Position numbers and translations under genes: made by a program. The notes beneath the pieces were generated by a model. The model saw only the letters and a list, made by a program, of their open reading frames with translations, ran no database searches and was not told the origin of the DNA. Of a DNA stretch of 64,000 bases, positions 11,597 to 59,690 are shown piece after piece. Source of the DNA: Carettochelys insculpta. Lineage: Eukaryota; Chordata; Testudines; Carettochelyidae. The DNA lies in assembly GCF_033958435.1 (NCBI RefSeq), contig NC_134137.1, forward strand, positions 251,022,501 to 251,086,500. Reading direction: 5' to 3'. Position 1 is the stretch's first letter; every line of letters starts with the position of its first letter.

Positions 11597-12305
11597 GCCA
11601 TGTCTACATGTGCACGCTACTTCGAAGTAGCGGCACTAACTTCGAAATAGCGCCCGTCACGGCTACACGCGCCGGGCGCTATTTCAATGTTAACATCGAC
11701 GTTAGGTGGTGAGACGTCGAAGCCACTAACCCCATGAGGGGATGGGAATAGCGCCCTACTTCGAAGTTGAACGTTGAAGTAGGGCACGTGTAGACGATCC
11801 GCATCCCGCAACATCGAAATAGTGGGGTCCGCCATGGTGGCCATCAGCTGAGGGGTTGAGAGACGCTCTCTCTCCAGCCCCGGCGGGGCTCTATGGTCAC
11901 CGTGTGCAGCAGCCCTTAGCCCAGGGCTTCTGACTGCTGCTGCTGCAGCTGGGGATCCATGCTGCATGCACAGGGTCTGCAACCAGTTGTCGGCTCTGTG
12001 GATCTTGTGTTGTTTAGTGCAACTGTGTCTGGGAGGGGCCCTTTAAGGGAGCGGCTTGCTGTTGAGTCCGCCCTGTAACCCTGTCTGCAGCTGTGCCTGG
12101 CACCCTTATTTCGATGTGTGCTACTTGGGCGTGTAGATGTTCCCTCACAGCGCCTATTTCGATGCGGTGCTGCGCAACGTCGATGTTGAACGTCGACGTT
12201 GCCAGCCCTGGAGGACGTGTAGACATTATTCATCGAAATAGCCTATTTCGATGTCGCTACATCGAAATAAGCTACTTCGATGTAGGCTTCACGTGTAGAC
12301 GTAGC
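11597..12305. mobile_element. Harbinger-type MITE rich in TTCGAA-like motifs
   Basis: The left end gccatgtctacatgtg and the inverted right end (revcomp gctacgtctacacgtg) match. Just inside them, both ends carry ACTTCGAAGTAGC-like or ACATCGAAGTAGC-like sequence. The interior is unusually CpG-rich for this window, with many TTCGAA, TCGATG and GACGTC words, suggesting a relatively young insertion. It lies only 31 bases from the end of the previous element. Candidate target duplication is TAA on the left and TAT on the right (one mismatch). The minus-strand frames at 11617-12233 are fortuitous. Confidence 0.7.
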
Positions 12306-27449: not shown

Positions 27450-30120
27450 AGACATAAGACCATAAGAATGTGTATACTGGGTCAGAACAAAGGTCCATCC
27501 AGCCCAGTACCCTGTCTGCCGACATGGGCTGATGCCATGTGCCCCAAAGGGAGTGGAATGAACAGGTAACAATCAAGCAATCTCTCTCCTGCCATCCATC
27601 TCCAGCTTCTGACAAACAGAGGCTAGGGGCACCACTCCTTACTCATCCTGGCTAATAGCCATTAATGGACCTAACCTCCATGAATGTATCAAGCTCTTTT
27701 TTTAAACCCTGTTATAGTCCTAGCCTTCACAGTCTCCTCTGGCAAGTTGTTCCACAGGTTGACTGTGCGTTGTGTGAAGAAAAACTTCCTTTTATTTGTT
27801 TTAAATCTGCTGCCCGTTAACTTCATTTGGTGTCCTCTAGTTCTGATATTACAGGAACAAGTAAATAATTTTCCTTGTTCACTTTCTCCACATCACTCAT
27901 AATTTTATATACCTCTATCATATCCCTGCTTAGTCTCCTCTTTCCTACGATGAAAAGTCCTAATGTTTTAAAATCTTTCTTCATATGGGACTCATTCCAA
28001 ACCCCTAAACATTTTAGTTGCCCTTTTCTGAACCTTCTGTAGTGCCATTATGTCACTTTTGAGATTAGGAGACCACATCTGTGCGCAGTATGTGGACATA
28101 CCATGGTTATATATAAGAGCAATAAGATGTTCGTTTTATTCTCTATCCCTTTTTAAATGATTCCTAACATCCTGTTTGCTTTTTTGACTGCTGCAGCACA
28201 CTGTGTGGATACTTTCAGAGAACTATACACAATGATGCCAAGATCTTTTTCCTTTTTAGTTGTTGCTAAATTAGCCCCCATCATTCTGTATGTATGGGGG
28301 GGGTGTTATTTTTTCCAGTGTGTATGACTTTACATTCAGCCACATTAAATTTCATCTGCCATTTTATTGACCAATCTCTCAGTTTTGTGAGATATTTTTG
28401 AAATTCTTCAGTCTGCTTTGGTCTTAACTGTCTTGAACAGTTTTGTATTGTCTGCAAACTTTGCCACCTCACAGTTTACCCCTTTCTCCAGATCATTTAT
28501 GAATAAGCTGAATAAGATTTGTCCTAGGACTGACCCTTGGGGAACACCACTCTCTCCACTCTGAAAGTTTACCATTTATTTCTACCCTCTGTTTCCTGCC
28601 TTTTAACCAGTTCTTAGTCCATGAACGGATCTTCCCTCTTATCCCATGACAATTTATGTAAGAGCCTTTGGTGAGGGATTTTGTCAAAGGCTTTCTGGAA
28701 ATCCAAGTACACTATGGGCTTGTCTACACTACTACCTTCCTTCGAAGGAAGGATGGTAATTAGGGTGTTGGGAGTTTACTAATGAAGTGCTGCCATGCAC
28801 AGGCAACACTTCATTAAGCAAATTCCCCCCCAGCCCCGCGGCAGCTTTGAAGTTTTAAACTTCGAAGTACTGGCATGCGTCTAGCTGCAGCACACCCGCT
28901 GGTACTTTGAAGTGGAGTAAGGGGACTTCAAAGTTGCCCTGGCACTTCAAAGTACCAACATGTGAGCTGCGGCTAGATGCATGCCGGTACTTCGAAGTTG
29001 CTGGGCGGGGGGAGGGAAATTTGCTTAATGAAGTGCTGCCCATGCACAGCAGCACTTCATTAGTAAACTCCCAACACCCTAATTACCATCATTCCTTTGA
29101 AGGAAGGTGGTAGTATAGACAAGCCCTATATGTACTGGACTCCCTTTATCCACGTTTGTTGATCTCTTCAAAGTACTTTAATAGATTAGTAAGACATGAT
29201 TTCCCTTTATAGAAACCATGTTGACTTTTCCCCAACAACTTATGTTCTTCTAGGTGTCTGACAATTTTATTCTTTACTACGGTTTCAATTAATTTGCCTG
29301 GTACCAACATTAGTCTTACCGGTCTGTAATTGCTGGGATCACCTCTAGAGCCCTTTTTAAATATTGGCTTTACATTAGCTATCTTCCAGTCATTGAGTAC
29401 AAAATGATTTAAAGGATAGGTTACAAACCACAGTTAATAGTTCTGCAATTTCACATCTGATTTCTTTCAGAACTCTTGGGTGAAAGCCATATGGTCCCAG
29501 TGACTATGTTAAGTTTATCAGTCAGTTCCAAACCTCTTCTAATGACACCTCAATCTTGGACAATTCCTTTTGTAGCTGGATCTTCTAGGGGCCCCACTGG
29601 TTGTCTAGCAAGCTTCCTGTTTCTAATGTACTTAAACTTTGTTACTGCTTTTTGAGTTTTCAGCTAGCTGTTCTACAAACTCCATTTTGGCTTTTCTTAT
29701 TGCATTTTTACATTTAATTTGGCAACGTTTATGCTCCTTTCTATTTTTCTCACTAGTATTTAACATCCACTTTTTAAAAGTTGCCTCTTTATTTCTCACT
29801 GCTTCTTTTACATGGTTGTTAAGCCACGGTGGCACTTTCCTGGGTCTTTTACCATGTTTTTTAATTTGAGATATATATTTAAATTGGGCGTCTAGTATGG
29901 TGTCTTTGAAAAGTTTCCATGCAGCTTGCAGGGATTTTACTTTAGTCACTGTACCTTTTAATTTCCATTTAACTAACCATCTCATTTTTCCACAGTTCCC
30001 CTTTCTGAAATCAAGTGTCCAGACAAGTATCCAGTTACAATATGGTTACAAATGGTGTTTGTATACATTCTAGTGCACCAGGATGGTTATTTAGGTATTC
30101 TGGCAGTTTAACTTGTGCTT
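27450..30120 (-). mobile_element. CR1/L2-like LINE, longest copy, split by a MITE
   Basis: This minus-strand LINE runs from its 3' end near 27450 (gaccataagaatgtgtatac) to a 5' truncation near 30120. On the minus strand, 29632-29985 encodes a basic linker region upstream of the RT (with AWKLFKDTILDAQFKYI and VPPWLNNHVKEAVRNKE). Next, 28493-28687 encodes an RT segment (NWLKGRKQRVEINGKLSEW) and 28281-28472 the thumb (DWSIKWQMKFNVAECKV). Frameshifts and stops separate the pieces, so the element is dead. A foldback MITE (28716-29126) interrupts it; removing the MITE and one TAT restores continuity with the copy at 1-2500. This copy is better preserved than the one at 1-2500. Confidence 0.85.
28716..29126. 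mobile_element. Foldback Harbinger-type MITE inside the LINE
   Basis: The ends are GGGCTTGTCTACACTACTAC and its complement GTAGTATAGACAAGCCC. The inverted similarity continues through almost the whole 411 bp (for example gggtgttgggagtttactaa against ttagtaaactcccaacaccc), so a single strand could fold into one long hairpin. The trinucleotide TAT lies on both sides (28713-28715 and 29127-29129). TTCGAA and TTTGAAG words are frequent. Confidence 0.85.
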
Positions 30121-30801: not shown

Positions 30802-31202
30802 AAGAGAACTTGACTTCGTCTCTGGAACCTGAAAAAGAACTTGATACGTCCATTGGGTTTACAGAGGTCTGTGATTGTCTTTGGACCCAAGACTCCACTT
30901 ATGACAACCATTCACATCTTCCAGCATGCCAATTTATTTAAATCAATGCAATGCATGAGTTTGTCCTTAGGGTGAATTATTCTTTATTATGTACTTTAAT
31001 TATTATAAGGCTTATGATAGGCACCGTGTGAAACTGGTCGGTTAACCAATAAATGCATTCAATCACAGAGGTGGCAGTATGGATTGTGTGAATTAGGTTT
31101 TAGTGCCATTCAGAAATAGCCACAGTTCAGTAGTTGTTGGCTGGCAATTGATACACCTGCACCAGTGCTGACTCTGGCCTATGGTGAATAATAGCACATA
31201 TA

Positions 31203-31575
31203 GGCTGTGTCTACACTAGCCAAAAACTTCGAAATGGCTATTTCGAAATTTACTAATGACGCGCTGAAATACATATTCGGGGCCTCATTAGCATGTGGGC
31301 AGCAGCAGCACTTCGAAATTGACGCGGCTCACCACCGCGCGGCTCGTCCAGATGGGGCTCCTTTTCGAAAGAACCCCGCCTACTTTGAAGTCCCTTTATT
31401 GCCATCTGCTTATAGGAATAAGGGGACTTCGAAACAGGTGGGGTCCTGTCAAAGAGGAGCCGTGTCAATTTCGAAGAGTCGTGGCCGCCCGCATGCTAAT
31501 GAGGCGCTGAATATGTGTTTCATTAGTAAACTTTGCATGGCCATTTCGAAGTTTTTGGCTAGTGTAGACATAGCC
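31203..31575. mobile_element. TTCGAA-family Harbinger-type MITE, ATA duplication
   Basis: Left end GGCTGTGTCTACACTAGCC and right end GGCTAGTGTAGACATAGCC are inverted repeats followed inside by aaaaacttcgaaatggc. ATA flanks both ends (31200-31202 and 31576-31578). The interior holds a second inverted repeat (acttcgaaattgacgcggct against cgtgtcaatttcgaagag). The plus-strand 129-codon frame simply runs through the element. The related copy at 45024 shares most of the sequence. Confidence 0.85.
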
Positions 31576-33066
31576 ATAGGCATTTATACTAATTAAGATG
31601 ACACTTACTCCTTTTTTTCCACTGGGATAATCGCTGATTAGCTCCTCCAGTGCAAATCCCATCTTGCAATTATCTAAACTTAAGAGTCAGCACAGATACA
31701 GCTAATATTCAATTTAATTCTTCCTGTATGGGAACAAGGTCTAAGACAGTGTGGGAAAGCTGAGGCAATTCCTATTCACCCTACCTCAGCCCGACAATGA
31801 AGAACAAACTGGAACCCCAAAAATGTAAGCCTAACTACTCAGGGTTAATTTTTTCACATGCCAGGATTTGAGCACCGCTTAGTTCTTTCACTAAGAATGT
31901 GGCAGTCTAAAATATTCAAAACTATACATACATTAACTGGACTCCTTTGGCATACCTGTGAGAGTGGAAAACAGCGTAAACACTCCAGAAGCAACGTGAC
32001 ATTTGATGCAATTTGACTAACAGCATGGTATAAATATTTAAATTTGACTCATAGACCTTAGTCTCCATTGCCCATCACCTTCAGTAGTCATTGATACCAC
32101 TGCAAAGTAAGTATAAAATGCAACCCATCTGAGTTAGGGGCAGTTGATACTCACTTTATGCCAGAGTGAATGACTGCACAATGGATAAACAAGCTCACAT
32201 AATTTTATGGAATGGCAAAGCTAATAGTGTAAAATGTCTTACCACCTGGTCTAGCACATAGCACACTTAGGCTATGTCTATACAGCAAAGTTATTTCAGA
32301 ATAACAGCTGCTATTCCAAAATAACTTTGCAAGCAACTACACAGCAAAACTGGTATATTGAAATAATTTCAAAATAGCAGGTGGTTTATTTTGATTTCTG
32401 TAAAACTCATTCTATGAGGAGCAGTACCTATTCCAAAATAGAAATTTCAGAATACGGGCTGTATAAACAGGGACAAGGAGCTATTTCAAAATAGGGGGCC
32501 TCCAGCCACACCAGGGTGCCCTGCTGGCCAATCAGTGTGGCTGCTCTATTTCAAAATAGCTGAGTGCTATTTCCATACGCATTTTGGCCGCGTCTACACT
32601 ACCAAATTCTTTCCAAAGATTTTGCAAAAGAAGGGGCTCTTTGGAAAGATCCCACAGAATGTCTACACACAAAATCTGCTCTTCCGCTCCTGGATCAGGA
32701 AGAGTGCTTTCTTCTGAAAGAACCTTTAGGAAAAAAAGTGTGTATAGATGCTCCATGGAGCGCTCTTTTGAAAGAACAATCCTGCATGGGCTGGCCAGCT
32801 GGGGCATGGGGACTCCCTGTCCAGAGATAGTAGAGCTCTATGCTCCCCACGTCTGGCTGCTTTTAAAGCTGCAGGGTCCCAGAAACCCTGTGGCAGGGAG
32901 CTGAGAGCATGGAGGCAGCAAGGAGGGAAGCCTCATAACCCCACGCCCTCACAGTCACTCCTGCGGTGACCTGAGCCATGATTTTGGCCAGGTAGCTGCC
33001 CCTCAAGCCACAGGAACTCCCCAAGGAGTCAGCTGAGGAGTCACAGGAGCTCACCTTGGACCCCAA

Positions 33067-36320: not shown

Positions 36321-36948
36321 ACTGGGTAGCTCCACGCAGGCTGAATGACCTGGGGAGGGTGCAGCAGGGGCTATGGTGGGTTGGGGACCCCACAGCCAAA
36401 TCCTGGCCACCACAGCAGGTGGAGGATGGCCACCAGGAGGGTAGCCAGCAAGCGAGCCAGGGTGAGCCTGAAGGTCCACAGCTGCTCTGGGTCCATGGCT
36501 CTGAGGGCTGAGCTTCAGGACATGCCACGGGCTCTGTGAGGCTGTGTGCAGCACAGCCGGCCTGAGCAGCAAGTGTAGGGAGCGGGTGTTTGGAACGGGC
36601 CTGCTAAGGGACCGTGTGGCCAGAGCTCCGAGAGGGGCTTTCTGACCATGTGACGCCATTGGAGGTGTTTTCTGGCCTGTTCTTTCGACAGAGTGCCCAG
36701 GGCGGTGTGGACACACACTTTCAAAAGTATAGCTCACTCTTTTGATCTGCTTTTTATGTTGGATGTGACCTTTTGAAAGATGATCTTCTCGATGGTCTCT
36801 TCCGCAAGATCATTGTTCGAAAGATCCCTGTAGCGTAGATACTGCCTCTGTGCGTAGATGTGCTATTTCAAAATAAGCACTTCAGAGAAAACCTCTTCTG
36901 TAACAGTTTAGTCTGAAATAACGCTACTGTGTAGACATAGCCTAAGAG

Positions 36949-37551
36949 AAAGCAGTCAAGTAGCACTTTGAAGACTAGCAAAATAGTTTATTAGGTGAGC
37001 TTTTGTGGGACAGACCCACTTCTTCAGACCACAGCCAGACCAGAACAGACTCAATATTTAAGACACAGAGAACCAAAAACAGTAAGCAAGGTGGACAAAT
37101 CAGAAAAAAATGATCAAGGTGAGCAAATCAGAGGGGCGGGGGGGAAGGTCAAGAATTAGATTAAACCAAGTATGCGGACGAGCACCTATAGTGACTCAGA
37201 AAATTCCCATCCCGGTTCAAACCACGTGTTACTTAAAGTGCTACTTGACTTAGTTTCAACTGGGATGGGAATTTTCTGAGTCACTATAGGGGCTCATACT
37301 TGGCTTAATCTAATTCATGACCTTTCCCCCCGCCCCAATTTGCTAACCTTGATCATTTTTTTCTGATTTGTCCTCCTGGACTGTTTTTGATTCTCTGTGC
37401 CTTAAATATTGAGTCTGTTCTGGTCTGGTCTGAAGAAGTGGGTCTGTCCCACGAAAGCTCACCTAATCAATTATTTTGCTAGTCTTTAAAGTGCTACTTG
37501 ACTGCTTTTTGTTTTGATAGTATATAGCCTAGCATGGCTCCCTCTCTGTTA
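36949..37551. mobile_element. Palindromic retroelement, possibly Penelope-like, 12-bp TSD
   Basis: Two arms of roughly 270 bp (about 36949-37215 and 37258-37525) are near-perfect inverted copies around a spacer of about 40 bases. Each arm contains gacagacccacttcttcag and aagctcacctaat or their complements. The unit is flanked by the 12-mer atagcctaagag (36937-36948 and 37552-37563). Single-arm copies of the same family lie at 46652, 57527 and, more diverged, 44513 and 60683. Head-to-head arms and variable target duplications are known in Penelope-like elements; that class assignment is my inference, since no reverse transcriptase is present. Confidence 0.65.
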
Positions 37552-44150: not shown

Positions 44151-45020
44151 CTGGTTCTCATAGATACACTGAGGAGTTCTTTGGGTGAAACTGGGCTACA
44201 GGCTGAACCTCTCTAACCCAGAACTCTCTAGTCAGGCAACATCCCTCATCTAGCCTGATTTTTGTTATCATGGGTGTGGTCAAGTTTCCTGTGGTCCCCT
44301 AAAGTTTGCATTCAGCCGCCAGCCCTGGCTCTCAGTGTTCTGTGCTGTTATTTAACTCTAATTTACCCCTAAATGATTTGAGAGCCCAGTAAGCCTTGGT
44401 GGTGTTGGTAATATGCTAGACAATTGACTTCCTGTGGGCTGGCAGATTCTCATTTAGCACCAGTCAGGTCCCAAGCGTGCCAGACAAAAGTTCAGCCTGT
44501 ACAATAATTCCAGGGAATAGTTGTGTTAGTCTGTAGCTTCACAAAAACAAGCAGTCTTATAGCACCTCAAAGACTAACCTATGTATGTATTAGGTAATGC
44601 ACTTTCATGGGTAACATCTCAATTCACTGTTGGCCCAGCCCTCTTAGCTGCTCCTTCAACTCCCACCACTTTCAGTGATACTGGATGGTGATTGCATCAG
44701 ATAAGCAGTGCTCATCTCTGTGGGATCAGGCTCCAGCATCCTGCCCCTGACAGACACATGCACTTACAATTGCCTTTGACATCCATAATCTGACATTAAA
44801 CACTGATTCTCCATAGCCTTGCCCCTTGTGAAGCCACTGATGTGTGCAGAATAACTGGGAAATGCTACCTTTGCATGCCGGGAAATGCCTGCCCAAGTTG
44901 TAGGGGACTGGAGAATCAGGGCCTAAACCTTCAAACCAGTGCTGCTAAGCCATATTTACTCAATACACTTCAAACAGCAAGGTTTGGCCAATGCAGTTTT
45001 ACAGGACTCTAGTATATATC
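44151..45020. other. Non-coding, with a retroelement-tail fragment
   Basis: At 44513-44615, 'gtgttagtctgtagcttcac' followed by 'agcacctcaaagactaac' and 'gcactttcatgggtaac' is a diverged minus-orientation copy of the repeat family that forms the palindrome at 36949. The rest shows no feature. Confidence 0.5.
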
Positions 45021-45023
45021 TCT

Positions 45024-45289
45024 GCCTGTGTCTACACGTGCCCCAAACTTCGAAATGGCCATGCAAATTCCCATGTGGGAATAAGGGGACTTCGAAGTAG
45101 GCGGGGTCCTTTCGAAAAGGAGCCCCGTCTGGACGCGCCGCACGGCGGCAAGGAGCGTCAATTTCGAAGCACGGCTGCCGCCCGCATGCTAATGAAGCGC
45201 TGAATATGCATTTCAGCGCTTCATTAGTAAACTTCGAAATGGCCATTTGCATGGCCATTTCGAAGTTTGGGGCACGTGTAGACACAGCC
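45024..45289. mobile_element. TTCGAA-family Harbinger-type MITE, TCT duplication
   Basis: Ends GCCTGTGTCTACACGTGCCC and, inverted, GGCTGTGTCTACACGTGCCC, followed on both sides by caaacttcgaaatggccatg. TCT flanks both ends (45021-45023 and 45290-45292). High identity between the two ends and retained CpG make it one of the youngest insertions here. Confidence 0.85.
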
Positions 45290-45671
45290 TCTGAGAATAA
45301 GGTTTAGTTTGAATAGAAAGTTTACATCTACAATAGAACCCCTAATTTAGAAATTGATTAGCAACTGAGGAATTCATAAAATCAAAAAAGTTTATAAAAC
45401 TGAACAGCTCCCAATTACACTGCTTACGGCACATAAGTTATCAGCTGGTCAGTGATCATGTGCCTAATCAGTGGTAGCAACGGTATACACGGTGTGCCTG
45501 AGTTTTCTTTGAGAGAAATACAGCTCTGCTTTGCTGCCTGTTCTCCAGGGTATGTCTATACTACAGCAGCACTATTCTGCCATAGCAACACCATAGCAGA
45601 CATTTCTTACATCAACACAAGGCTTTTTTCCTCACTGATGTTGTTAGTTCTCTGAATGGTGGTAGCTACTG

Positions 45672-46830
45672 TGATGGACTTCACTGGGGTGCAGCCTGGA
45701 ACTGGGATACCACTAAGCCCTCTGGCATACCAGTCTGGGGCTCCCTCTCAAACTATGTGGCTGACAAACTGCAGACCACTCCTGGTCCTGCACTCACACA
45801 AATCTTTACATCAGCAGAGTCCCATCCAGATGAAGTTACCTGAATGCTTCTCCTCAGCCATAGATGAACTAACAATAGAGAGGCTTCAGCCAGCTCCCCC
45901 ACCCCACACCCCAGCCTAGGGCAACACAGCTGTACTGTCTTGCCCTGGTCAAAACCCTGACCAGTGCAAGTTTAGTATGCAGTATGCCCCTTCTTCCGTA
46001 TGGTGAGGGCAATGTACAAGCCCCTGTTCCTAAGTAGACTTCGGTTTGCACTTCAAATACATGATTTCAGGTAAAAATATAAAAAACTGATTAACTACAG
46101 AAAGGTGGGTTGTGTAATTATAAGGAATAGCATACAGATCAGAGCAGATTACCTAAGAAATAAAACAAAATGCAATCTATATGTAGGATTCGACTCAAGC
46201 AGCATCTCATCCAGTTAACTAGTACAAGCAGCTTACAGCTTTTGCTTACACAAGCAGGAAATCTTCCGTCTCTCCTGAGATTTCCTTCTACACTTCAATC
46301 TTAGTTCCACAGGTTCTTTCAGGTGCTGTGTTTTAGGCAAGTGAAGCCAAGTGGTGATATCACTTCCCCTCTTTTATAGCTTCTTGCTTGCTGGAAAGGT
46401 CTTTGCTTATGATTGGAGGGTGCATCCCTCTCCCCTCCCCACCTCAGACACACCCCACATTCAGCAACCTCCATTGCCATTGTGCTCCCTCTGGGAAGCC
46501 TCCTTTGTTAACAATTCCTAAGATAGTTCCTGTGGATTTCCTTTAATGGAGCCATTAGCACTGTCTAGCTTGCTTGTTGTTGTGCCTGAAAGGAAGTTGT
46601 GAGTGTTTCCAACTTCACAATGTATTTCAGTAACACACACACAACAGAACTGTTCTGGTCTGGCTATGGTCTGAAGAAGTGGGTCTGTCCCATGAAAGCT
46701 CACCTAATAAACTATTTTGCTAGTCTTTAAAGTGCTACTTGACTGCTTTTTGTTTTGATAGTGTATAGACTAGCACGGCTTCCTCTCTGTTACTATACAA
46801 CAGAACTTCCTAACTTCACATACCACCACA
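45672..46830 (-). mobile_element. LTR-like fragment, interrupted
   Basis: The left end TGTGATGGACTTCACTGGGG resembles the TGTGATG start of the solo LTR at 24900. On the minus strand a TATA box (TATAAAAG at about 46372-46379) lies upstream of the rest, in the same orientation as that LTR. The right end near 46830 is uncertain and I could not find a matching 5-bp duplication. A retroelement tail interrupts it at 46652-46796. Confidence 0.45.
46652..46796 (+). mobile_element. Tail copy of the palindrome-forming repeat
   Basis: The sequence from 'gttctggtctggctatgg' through 'gaagaagtgggtctgtccc' to 'ggcttcctctctgttactat' corresponds to the right arm of the 36949-37551 palindrome. It is flanked by the 11-mer acaacagaact (46641-46651 and 46797-46807), which shows it moved as a 5'-truncated single arm. 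Confidence 0.75.
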
Positions 46831-48880: not shown

Positions 48881-49248
48881 GGGCTCGTCTACACTAGCTC
48901 CCTCCCTCGAAAGGGGCACGCTAATCAGCCCGATGGGAGAATAGCAGTGAGGTGCCACGCTGCAGCATATGCAGTGCCTCATTAGCATAATTCCTACCAT
49001 GCAATTTTCGAAGTTCCCTTACTCCAAAAATGTTTTGGGAGTAAGGGAACTGCGAAGCTGTGCGGATACTTTGAAGTGCCTGTGGCCGCGCTGCTTGCCA
49101 CCACTTTGAAGTGAGCAATTTCAAAGTTTGTGGAGCAGGAATTATGCTAATGAGGTGCTGCATATGCAGCATGGTATCTCATTGCTGTTCTCCCATCGGG
49201 CTGATTAGCATGCCCCCTTCGAAGGAGGGGGCTAGTGTAGATGAGCCC
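48881..49248. mobile_element. Foldback Harbinger-type MITE
   Basis: Ends GGGCTCGTCTACACTAGCTC and, inverted, GGGCTCATCTACACTAGCCC. The inverted similarity continues (gctaatcagcccgatgggag against ctcccatcgggctgattagc) through much of the 368 bp. Flanking trinucleotides are ATG and ATA, one mismatch. Structure matches the MITE at 28716. Confidence 0.8.
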
Positions 49249-55080: not shown

Positions 55081-56618
55081 CAAGAATGTCAAACATGCAG
55101 CCCAGGGGCTGCATACAGTTCAATCGCATTTTTTTGAAGACTGCGACTATAAGTTGATAAAGTATATAAGTGTGGCCTGCACAGCTGCCTTGCCCCCTGC
55201 CTGCCTGTGTGAGGAGCTGACCAGAAGCCACTGCTGGGCACGAGGACCTGCGGGTGGCCAGCCTCTGAGCCATGTACTCCAGGAACATCAACAGCAGCAG
55301 CCCCAGCCCAGGGCCCAGCCCAGGGCAGCAGGAAAAGCACAGGGACCTGCCCCTCTTCAGCCCCAGCACCTACAAGCTCCTGGCATTGCTCATTGCCACC
55401 ATCAGCATCCTGGGCTTGTGCCACACTCTGCTGGTACTGGTTCTGTATGCTCACTTCCACCACCTGCACACCCCCACCCACCTCTTCCTGCTCAACATCA
55501 GCCTCCCCCATCGCTGGGCCTGGGGCATAGCTGGCTGCCTCTGGGACGGCTTCAGCAACAGTCTCTTTGGTAAGGCAGGGAGCCCCCTCTGCCCCTTCCT
55601 CACCATGTCACCCACTACTAGCCTCTTCCCACCATACTCCATCTTCCCCCCTATTGCCATACATTCCCCATCAGAGGTAGATTAGTGGGTCTCAGGGCCC
55701 TGAGCCACAGCACATGCCCCCTGCCTTTGTACTCCTGTCAGGGAGATGGGGTCAGGGCTTGGGGGTATGCCCCACTCTCCAGCAGGAGTGCCAGGCAGGC
55801 AGAGCAGGTTGGGCACAGGGCTACCTATTCTTATGGGGCTCCAAATTGGATGGAACCCCTCTTCTTAGCAGGCTGGCTCCATGGCTAATCCACCACTGCC
55901 CCCTGTCATTACCTACCTCACCATAAACTCACTCCATTTCCCACCAGCCCTTCTCACTTTCTCTTTCCCCAGCCCCATCCTCCCACAGCCCCTCTACCCA
56001 CTTTCGGTACAATCGTCTTTTCTCTCATTTCACTTTCTAGGTCCAACCTGCATCCACACGTCATCCTCTGCCTTCCACCATCACCTTACCCCACCACTAT
56101 CCCCTTGCCCCCCAATACTACAGCATACTCTATCTCATCTTCTCCCCACCCTCTCCAAATCCTCCATCTGAACAGCTGTCTCTCCATACTATCAGGGTAT
56201 TTTCCCCATACTTCTACTGACTCTGTTCCATTTTATCTGTCCACTGACATATTCCGCCAGTTTCGTTCTCTTATTGATACTGTTTCCCCACCACCTCTCC
56301 TTCCTTTTTCCACCAGCACCTTAAATTTATATTTAAATGAAAAATTATTAAATATGAGCAAACAACAATTTTACACATCAAATTTTATGAACTATTAATG
56401 AAATTATAAAACAATAAAATTCATATTATTCAATTATCAATTAAATTATTGTGTTATATTCAAACAAAACCTGAAAAAATATAAAACATATCTAAAACAT
56501 AATCTACAATAATAAATAATTATGACTTTCTTATAGAAGTACATTTTCTTTGGTGGCCCTGAAAGCTATCCGTTTTCAGTTGTGTGACCCTCAGTAGGCT
56601 TTGAGTTTGACATACCTG
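55081..56618 (+). mobile_element. hAT-type element carrying an opsin exon
   Basis: The left end CAAGAATGTCAAACATGCAG and the inverted right end CAGGTATGTCAAACTCAAAG form terminal inverted repeats of the CAGGGGTGTCAAAC type used by hAT transposons. The 8-mer gtttagaa stands directly outside both ends (55073-55080 and 56619-56626), a perfect hAT-size target duplication. The outer parts, about 55081-55170 and 56340-56618, look like ordinary non-autonomous hAT sequence, the right part being very AT-rich. The middle holds a GC-richer block with an OPN3-like first exon (55272-55569) and apparent intron sequence after it. No hAT transposase is present. The unit of 1538 bp therefore appears to have moved as a whole with captured host DNA. 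Confidence 0.75.
55272..55569 (+). pseudogene. OPN3: OPN3-like (encephalopsin) first exon, defective copy
   Basis: Encephalopsin is a non-visual, G-protein-coupled opsin. The frame opens at ATG 55272 ([10 protein letters not shown]), and shows an extracellular Ser/Pro-rich N-terminus and [20 protein letters not shown] leading into transmembrane helix 1 ([13 protein letters not shown]). After the loop [12 protein letters not shown] it continues to [18 protein letters not shown], where the cysteine expected to form the extracellular disulfide is kept. This matches the beginning of vertebrate OPN3. The coding part ends at 55569 in phase 1 with a consensus donor (TTTG|GTAAGG). Two defects stand out: about 20 residues of helix 2 that normally follow NISL, including the conserved Asp, are missing without a frame change, and the conserved Asn of helix 1 is replaced (GLCHTLLV). 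Exons 2-4, with the retinal-binding Lys, are not in the window. It lies inside a hAT-type unit, so I read it as a captured fragment, not the functional locus. Confidence 0.75.
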
Positions 56619-58664: not shown

Positions 58665-59690
58665 CCTTTATCCAGACTTAGGACAGGCAAGGATATCAAT
58701 GACAATGCAGAGGCAGCAGTGAGAATGTGCAGGGAGTTGTGAAGTTGGTTTAGAACGAGTAGAGGTATGAGACAAGGAGATCTGATATCGCCAAGTGTCT
58801 TCATCACGCACCTAGAGACAGTGATAGACAAGATCAAGGAAGAAGTAGAAGGGATATCTGTGTACGGGATGAGAATCAACAACTTGAGATTCATGGATGA
58901 TATAGTTATCATTGAAGAAGATGAAGAGAAGCTGGCGAGAACGGTGCAGGAGCTAAACGAGGAAGGGAAGTGGTACGAACTGATTGTGAACTTCGATAAA
59001 ACAAAAACACTGGTATTTGGAGATAAGGAAATAGGAAGGAAGATCAGTGTAGATGGGATCGAACAAGAGAACTTAGAGAAGTTCACATATTTGGGAAGCA
59101 ACATAACATATGATCTAGACCGTAAGAAGGAAATAGTGACTAGAATAGCGAAAGCAAGAGTGAATTTGAAGGCGATGGATAAGATCTGGAAAAGCAAAGT
59201 GATTACTTAGGAATGAAACTGAGCATCTTGAAAACGTGTATTCAGCAGCATGTTGTACAGATGTAAGACATGGGTGATAACGAAAGATTCGAAAGGAAGG
59301 ATATTGGCATTTGAGAGAAGTTGTTATAGGAAGATCCTGAGAATAGGATGGATGCAGAAGGTCATCAATGAGGCATTATATAAGAAGACACAGCCGAAAG
59401 AGAACCTACTGCAGAAGGTTATACAATGCAAGTTACAGCTATTCGGGCATATCTGTAGAATGAACAACGAATGGAAAATCAAGACTCTGCTATTCAGCAT
59501 ATTGGACAGTTTGAATAGGAGAGGCAGACCCCACAAAGAGTGGGTAGATGATACAGTAGATTGGTGAGGAGCTAGATTACAGAAACTAAGCCACTCTGCA
59601 CTGGACAGGGAAAGATGGAAGGAAATAGTGAGGGAGGCATCAGACATCCATGGGCACTGAGCCCATGGATGTTATGATGAGGATGATTTG
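58665..59690 (+). pseudogene. RTE-like LINE reverse transcriptase, C-terminal part
   Basis: The reading frame resumes after a stop near 58738 and is open from about 58740 to 59210. It shows RGMRQGDLISPSVF (RT motif before the active site), then NNLRFMDDIVIIEEDEEKL, where the catalytic YADD-type box is FMDD at 58890-58901. NFDKTKTLVFG and FTYLGSNIT follow as the thumb region. A frame break near 59210-59250 leads to a second frame with YRCKTWVITKD, FERSCYRKILRI, LQLFGHICRMN and RRGRPHKEWVDD, the C-terminal block typical of RTE-clade proteins. An in-frame stop at about 59565 separates the last residues, which end at 59660. The following 'ggatgttatgatgaggatga' looks like a decayed (GAT)n tail, as expected for RTE elements. 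The copy is 5'-truncated and dead; the clade is inferred from these motifs. Confidence 0.8.

Follow-up and report, generated by a model that had tools for sequence, protein, structure and literature searches.

The Pack-MULE and Pack-TYPE elements are non-autonomous DNA transposons that carry pieces of genes, often their G+C-rich 5' ends, and they are found mostly in plants and in superfamilies other than hAT. For animals, gene capture by cut-and-paste transposons is described as leading mostly to single-copy structures that arose without transposition, and a survey of 100 genomes reports only four multicopy cases (PMC8277862). Among the latter, Pack-hAT-N8_XT of the western clawed frog has hAT ends around a piece from the 5' part of a host gene (291 bp of the CAPSL 5' UTR) and is described with several insertions on three chromosomes, distinct duplications and a parent gene lying elsewhere; the discussion of the same paper gives five copies for one frog Pack-TIR case (PMC8277862). 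Another case is Ssk-FB4 of Drosophila melanogaster, a nearly whole host gene that was captured and moved several times, for which an origin by template switching (FoSTeST) has been proposed; the account describes it as young, polymorphic, thought to be functional and not of hAT type, with 2 bp of microhomology at its junctions and an insertion of 45 bp to which a de novo origin is ascribed (PMC8277862). Mar is a Drosophila MITE from the Buster group of hAT elements that is non-autonomous, has short inverted ends and makes 8-bp duplications of the form nnnTAnnn; it is presented as the product of internal transposon deletion, and host gene cargo is unmentioned in the portion of the text describing it (PMC3517528).

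The locus studied here lies at positions 55081 to 56618 of the window, by which we mean the whole 64-kb stretch of turtle DNA (Carettochelys insculpta) that was analysed. This unit is very probably one copy of a multicopy, non-autonomous Pack-hAT carrying a piece of the opsin gene OPN3, likely captured by template switching and then likely spread in a single burst by hAT transposase. It shares its short inverted ends and target preference with Mar, from which it differs in carrying OPN3. A multicopy Pack-hAT is a known kind of element (PMC8277862), which occurs here at an unusually high copy number; what sets the turtle family apart is its scale, a coding exon with its splice donor, an inverted piece at one junction and the later death of its parent gene. 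Compared with the frog element, the turtle one comprises about 1.2 kb with coding exon, donor and intron sequence, at 53 places; compared with Ssk-FB4, its copies are old, decayed and star-like in their relationships, and the extra piece at its junction can be traced to the parent locus, where it lies in the opposite orientation. No report of OPN3 on a transposon was found among the titles and abstract beginnings of the papers listed from one open-licence library.

The anatomy of the window copy is collected in table 1. Its left end, CAAGAATGTCAAAC, and its right end read on the other strand, CAGGTATGTCAAAC, form terminal inverted repeats of 14 bp that are identical at 12 positions, and the unit is flanked on both sides by GTTTAGAA without a mismatch. 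The perfect duplication and the matching inverted ends that the earlier note had described are thus present as claimed, except that the terminal motif is ATGTCAAAC rather than the GTGTCAAAC given there. In windows simulated with the dinucleotide composition of the real one, structures with identical 8-bp flanks, at most two mismatches in the 14-bp ends and a spacing of 150-6000 bp were encountered 3 times in 60, or about 0.05 per window; the reversed window retains the same structures and is consequently unusable as a control. Two further equally good pairs of ends in the window lie inside palindromic repeats.

Table 1. Features of the OPN3-bearing element and its flanks in the window
Feature	Position	Strand
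Left 8-bp target-site duplication GTTTAGAA	55073..55080	
Left terminal inverted repeat, 12/14 vs right	55081..55094	+
Element left end (family consensus 1-107)	55081..55189	+
Captured OPN3 5' flank, about 110 bp of family consensus missing in window copy	55190..55271	+
Captured OPN3 exon 1 coding part, open frame, 54-bp in-frame TM2 deletion	55272..55569	+
Splice donor GTAAGG at native exon 1 boundary, phase 1	55570..55575	+
Captured OPN3 intron 1 start, colinear with native C3 up to 69568496	55570..56287	+
Inverted OPN3 intron 1 piece (native C3:69568508-69568542, opposite strand), right border	56288..56320	+
hAT right arm, A+T-rich, 93% identical to consensus	56321..56618	+
Right terminal inverted repeat	56605..56618	-
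Right 8-bp target-site duplication GTTTAGAA	56619..56626	

The coding part, which had been noted as an OPN3-like exon with an ATG and a consensus donor, is indeed exon 1 of OPN3: it matches turtle opsin-3 with an E value of 1e-32 in tblastn and falls within the group of turtles plus alligator (support 97/96) together with turtle OPN3, on a long branch and with an unusual letter make-up, so that the sequence by itself makes a turtle host likely. Its second membrane helix (TM2) is 18 codons short, and its observed/expected CpG ratio is 0.08. When the fragment and the frame of the family consensus were used as protein queries, all matches retrieved were OPN3-like proteins; among the 44 collected, the stretch over TM2 has 38 residues in 42, 37 in one and an off-pattern form in one, and the deletion is seen in none. 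The exon fragment gave no Pfam hit and only weak GPCR matches in a sequence search of the PDB, and Pfam recognised no transposase in five frames lying in the element or running across it, which is what a non-autonomous copy should show. Exons 2-4 of OPN3 were not found within the window; an E 1e-7 match to a tuatara query meant to contain exons 2-4 turned out to be exon 1 itself, the query having been cut from a point inside that exon. Further copies of the arms, exon or intron in the window are limited to short weak matches. Nothing was found for the right end in viral and prokaryote collections or for OPN3 in the viral collection, as expected, nor for the window in Rfam at gathering scores. 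An account of the amino acid changes by CpG decay (a CpG transition is involved in 6 of the 10 changes at sites invariant among turtles) was superseded by the alignment of copies described below.

Inverted ends and a duplication are insufficient on their own as proof of mobilisation, because most single-copy animal cases are explained by gap filling (PMC8277862), a point on which the earlier reading needs correcting. The 2.18-Gb assembly containing the window was searched, and the counts that follow are lower bounds. With the 1538-bp unit as query, the best 40 of 725 first-look candidates were scored, the window included, many of the 725 probably sharing just one arm; 13 of the 39 other scored places have an unbroken match that runs from near query position 130 to the right end, at 74-83%, and the others are partial. 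A protein search with exon 1 added 11 places with an identity of at least 49%, once weaker matches (22-42%) that seem to be other receptor genes had been excluded, and a DNA search with a 340-bp part of the intron, scoring the best 40 of 50 first-look candidates, added two. OPN3-derived cargo is accordingly listed at 53 places besides the native gene, and the family is probably not much larger, since the intron part produced just 50 candidates. Forty-two of the 53 copies were read, including that of the window, while nine of the 11 others were found by one search and two by two. Exon 1 is present, at least in part, in 39 of the 42. A family consensus of 1642 bp, built from 25 copies, has the ends CAAGCATGTCAAAC and CAGGCATGTCAAAC, which are identical at 13 of 14 positions.

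Evidence for the movement of these copies comes from their target sites. Both ends could be located in 31 of 40 copies tested (nine were not placeable), and in 17 of these 31 the flanking 8-mers agree at six or more of eight positions; when right flanks were shuffled among copies in 5000 trials, 1.9 copies on average and at most 8 reached this level, and 43 of 930 cross pairs of flanks did so. All 17 duplications are distinct from one another. They are centred on TA, with A at position 5 in 34 of 34 flanks and T at position 4 in 31 of 34, in agreement with the target consensus of Buster-group hAT elements, nnnTAnnn (PMC3517528). The 8-bp length of the duplications is itself a hAT feature, as are the short terminal inverted repeats, which range from 5 to 27 bp in this superfamily (PMC3517528). 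The 14 copies with placed ends that fall below six of eight, and those with unplaced ends, may reflect errors in end placement or later deletions. Among 80 flanks of 300 bp taken from 40 copies there is one matching pair, a left flank against a right one; hence, similarity stops at the ends of the element.

Where did the cargo come from? The native OPN3 gene lies at C3:69567495-69602068, on a contig other than that of the window, with exons 1-4 in order and exon 1 placed 21 kb upstream of exon 2. Positions 123-1304 of the family consensus are colinear with this locus at 73% over 1231 columns, and the parental segment, C3:69567366-69568542, comprises about 1.2 kb of 5' flank, exon 1, donor and the start of intron 1. 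Since the colinear match includes both the 5' flank and intron sequence, genomic DNA was captured and not a copy of the mRNA. In 90 kb at the native locus the hAT arms have just 26-28-bp matches, with E values of about 0.007. The earlier note had proposed that the 5' end of OPN3 was captured and mobilised as a unit, to be judged by a genome search and by comparison with the true locus: the search yielded many dispersed copies with shared ends, cargo and inverted junction and with distinct duplications, while the comparison found an ordered gene devoid of hAT arms, and both uphold the proposal.

The native gene, over C3:69567480-69602075, is a pseudogene in this genome. Its exon 1 has one extra G, exon 3 has a frameshift (by eye, at a T run) and an inserted inverted-repeat element of 0.7 kb, and exon 4 contains two stops, a TGA near its start and a later TAG. 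The extra G is present in none of the 39 exon-bearing copies, so that the captured form likely predates this lesion and the native gene probably decayed later than the capture. CpG is still frequent in the 800 bp that precede the native ATG (observed/expected 0.84), which argues against strong germline methylation there and consequently against silencing of the parent by the repeats.

The right border of the cargo has a peculiar structure. Consensus positions 1304-1338 correspond to native intron positions 69568508-69568542 on the opposite strand, at 33 of 35 positions, the near edge of this inverted piece lying 12 bp beyond the last base copied forward, 69568496. It is the sole match of the inverted piece at 24 or more of 35 positions in 90 kb at the native locus, and in the intron search a separate inverted match appeared at the native locus only, among the 40 scored places. 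The piece is kept at 23 or more of 35 positions in 38 of the 42 aligned copies, and was not seen in L039, L041, L066 and L071; of these, L066 and L071, which have a complete TM2, match the consensus only to positions 1029 and 802, respectively. Forward and inverted templates share the word TACC, and the inverted template shares ACC or more with the hAT arm. We infer that the right junction was made by template switching in which the strand was briefly reversed. On the left, hAT arm and cargo meet at some point within consensus positions 61-122.

Relatives of the element that have no cargo were sought with a query of joined arms, which gave 793 first-look candidates; of the best 40 scored, 34 are right-arm places outside the listed cargo places. 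Seven of these 34 showed a left end as well, and all seven, when read, were without the OPN3 piece: they have the left end of the family up to about position 60, a G+C-rich middle and the right arm of the family. The hAT element thus exists independently of its OPN3 cargo. The exact progenitor is not among the seven relatives read, given their differing middle and a left-arm match that extends only to about position 60. At the right junction, where the family consensus carries GCACCTTAAA, ACCTTAAA is found in four of the seven relatives, one of which has GCACCTTAAA; the word ACC is present there in only four of the seven. The middle of these cargo-free copies (L076-L082) is tandem-like, with GGGAGCC in some; this word occurs again where the OPN3 match starts on the left, a possible microhomology.

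In evolutionary terms, the copies look old and unconstrained. The TM2 segment of 63 nt is complete in 5 of the 39 exon-bearing copies, whereas 27, including that of the window, share a 9-nt remnant left by the 54-bp in-frame deletion, and 7 have other losses. In a tree built from 33 copies and the native sequence (nine of the 42 were dropped as partial or poorly aligned), inner branches account for 2.4% of the total length; such a star shape is likely that of a single burst, and short inner branches of this kind are expected to leave complete and deleted TM2 forms unseparated, as they are. Within the small groups of this tree, support is highest (98.2/98) for the pair of L019 and L036, which lie 4 Mb apart on the same contig (C10:32.1 Mb and C10:28.3 Mb), as after a late transposition or a duplication. 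The median distance to the consensus outside CpG sites is 0.114 for the 33 copies and 0.119 for all 42 rows. Turtles have a slow substitution rate, of the order of 1e-9 per site per year, and a rough age of the order of 100 million years follows from this rate. Divergence at codon positions 1, 2 and 3 is 0.098, 0.090 and 0.092 in the 33 well-aligned copies, and the coding part (about 0.093) is slightly less diverged than the intron part (0.107), in values uncorrected for base make-up; when all 42 rows are taken, exon-less ones included, the codon positions give 0.144, 0.135 and 0.148 and the intron part 0.143. The ATG is kept in 19 of 39 copies, the donor GT in 32, GTAAG in 24, and ATG together with GT in 18. 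A frame open from the first ATG to the donor exists in 5 of 39, and the OPN3 frame is kept throughout only in the window copy and in L042, the latter with an upstream ATG. The window copy differs from the consensus by 28 substitutions, distributed slightly unevenly over the codon positions (7/7/14); random placement of these substitutions preserves an open frame in 23% of trials, so that its openness is unremarkable. The prevalence of the TM2 deletion and the lack of constraint by codon position make the exon look like cargo rather than a working part of an opsin.

The capture and spread probably proceeded as follows. A replication fork in a hAT copy would have switched into the 5' region of OPN3 and copied about 1.18 kb forward, then reversed for some 35 bp on the other strand before returning to the right arm of the hAT element, the right-side switches occurring at short shared words, namely TACC and then ACC, or GCACC in one relative. 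The chimera would have been moved in trans by a hAT transposase made elsewhere, with a preference for sites with a central TA. The in-frame TM2 deletion would have arisen in a master copy, whose deleted version made most of the insertions read; the copies would then have decayed without constraint on their frame, and native OPN3 likely broke after the capture. Such a spread requires no function of the exon. The family shows what characterises Pack-TIRs, with arms that also exist without the OPN3 piece and a parental copy elsewhere without the ends, and what characterises the multicopy ones, with 53 places, 17 distinct duplications and a junction common to 38 of 42 copies.

The most serious rival of this scenario concerns its first step: the cargo might have entered a resident hAT copy by gap filling during break repair, without transposition or fork switching, and have been mobilised later. 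Gap filling is held to explain most single-copy animal cases, microhomology included (PMC8277862), and the order of forward piece, inverted piece and hAT arm also fits synthesis-dependent repair or other break repair with template switching; yet the multicopy cases are described as either misfitting gap filling or having no close enough outgroup (PMC8277862), and gap filling favours near templates, while the window copy sits on another contig than the native gene, although the founder need not have been this copy. We regard this origin as possible but doubtful. Gap filling directly at the window, producing a single-copy Pack-TIR with ends and duplication inherited from an older hAT insertion, is the sort of event assumed for most animal Pack-TIRs (PMC8277862); as an explanation of this locus it is extremely unlikely, and is refuted by the copy number and by a junction that recurs among copies with distinct duplications. 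That this unit is the true OPN3 gene, into which hAT ends have intruded, might be imagined from an exon 1 with ATG and donor, and is next to impossible: inverted ends and a perfect duplication surround the exon, exons 2-4 are not found beside it, and the multicopy matches together with the ordered gene on C3 refute the idea.

The copies might also have multiplied by segmental duplication or another route, with the hAT ends as mere passengers, a reading that could draw on the 14 of 31 copies in which no good target duplication is seen. It is highly improbable and was rejected, given flanks that share one match among 80, duplications that are distinct and TA-centred, and right arms that also occur at places without listed cargo. 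A role for the carried exon, by which copies would serve as portable first exons or promoters of host genes, is compatible with the retention of GTAAG in 24 of 39 copies and of ATG plus GT in 18, with the open frame and uneven substitutions of the window copy, with the slightly lower divergence of coding than intron sequence, and with the chimeric transcripts reported for some Pack-TIRs (PMC8277862). It is unlikely all the same, since codon positions diverge alike over 33 copies and nearly a quarter of random placements of substitutions also leave the window frame open. Judging from sequence, there is likewise a small chance that a portable OPN3 start was scattered before the death of the parent and that some copies still begin chimeric host transcripts; if this were true, part of a lost opsin would survive as the first exons of other genes.

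Under transposase-driven spread after template switching, the family would constitute a single capture present at 53 listed places and carrying a coding exon with its donor, in which the right border is a readable record of the event, a bit of the parental intron copied backwards. With this record, comparative data can put the proposed origin of multicopy Pack-TIRs by fork switching to the test. Moreover, the copies preserve a form of OPN3 exon 1 free of the frameshift that affects the native gene.

Other repeats are present in the window. TTCGAAG-rich palindromic elements lie at 31202-31596, 45013-45303, 28706-29136 and 48881-49248, some with GTGTCTACAC-like ends; the ends of these palindromic elements resemble those of the insertion in native OPN3 exon 3, with a 40-bp match at 45254-45293. 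On the minus strand, 704 bp at 11602-12305 are 91% identical to that inverted-repeat element of exon 3. Copies of an inverted-repeat element, at 36944-37513 and 46650-46795, are about 94% alike, which suggests a rather young insertion. A reverse transcriptase fragment (RVT_1, E 1e-15) lies at 58743-59210 and is followed at 59232-59567 by a frame without Pfam hit that appears LINE-like by eye.
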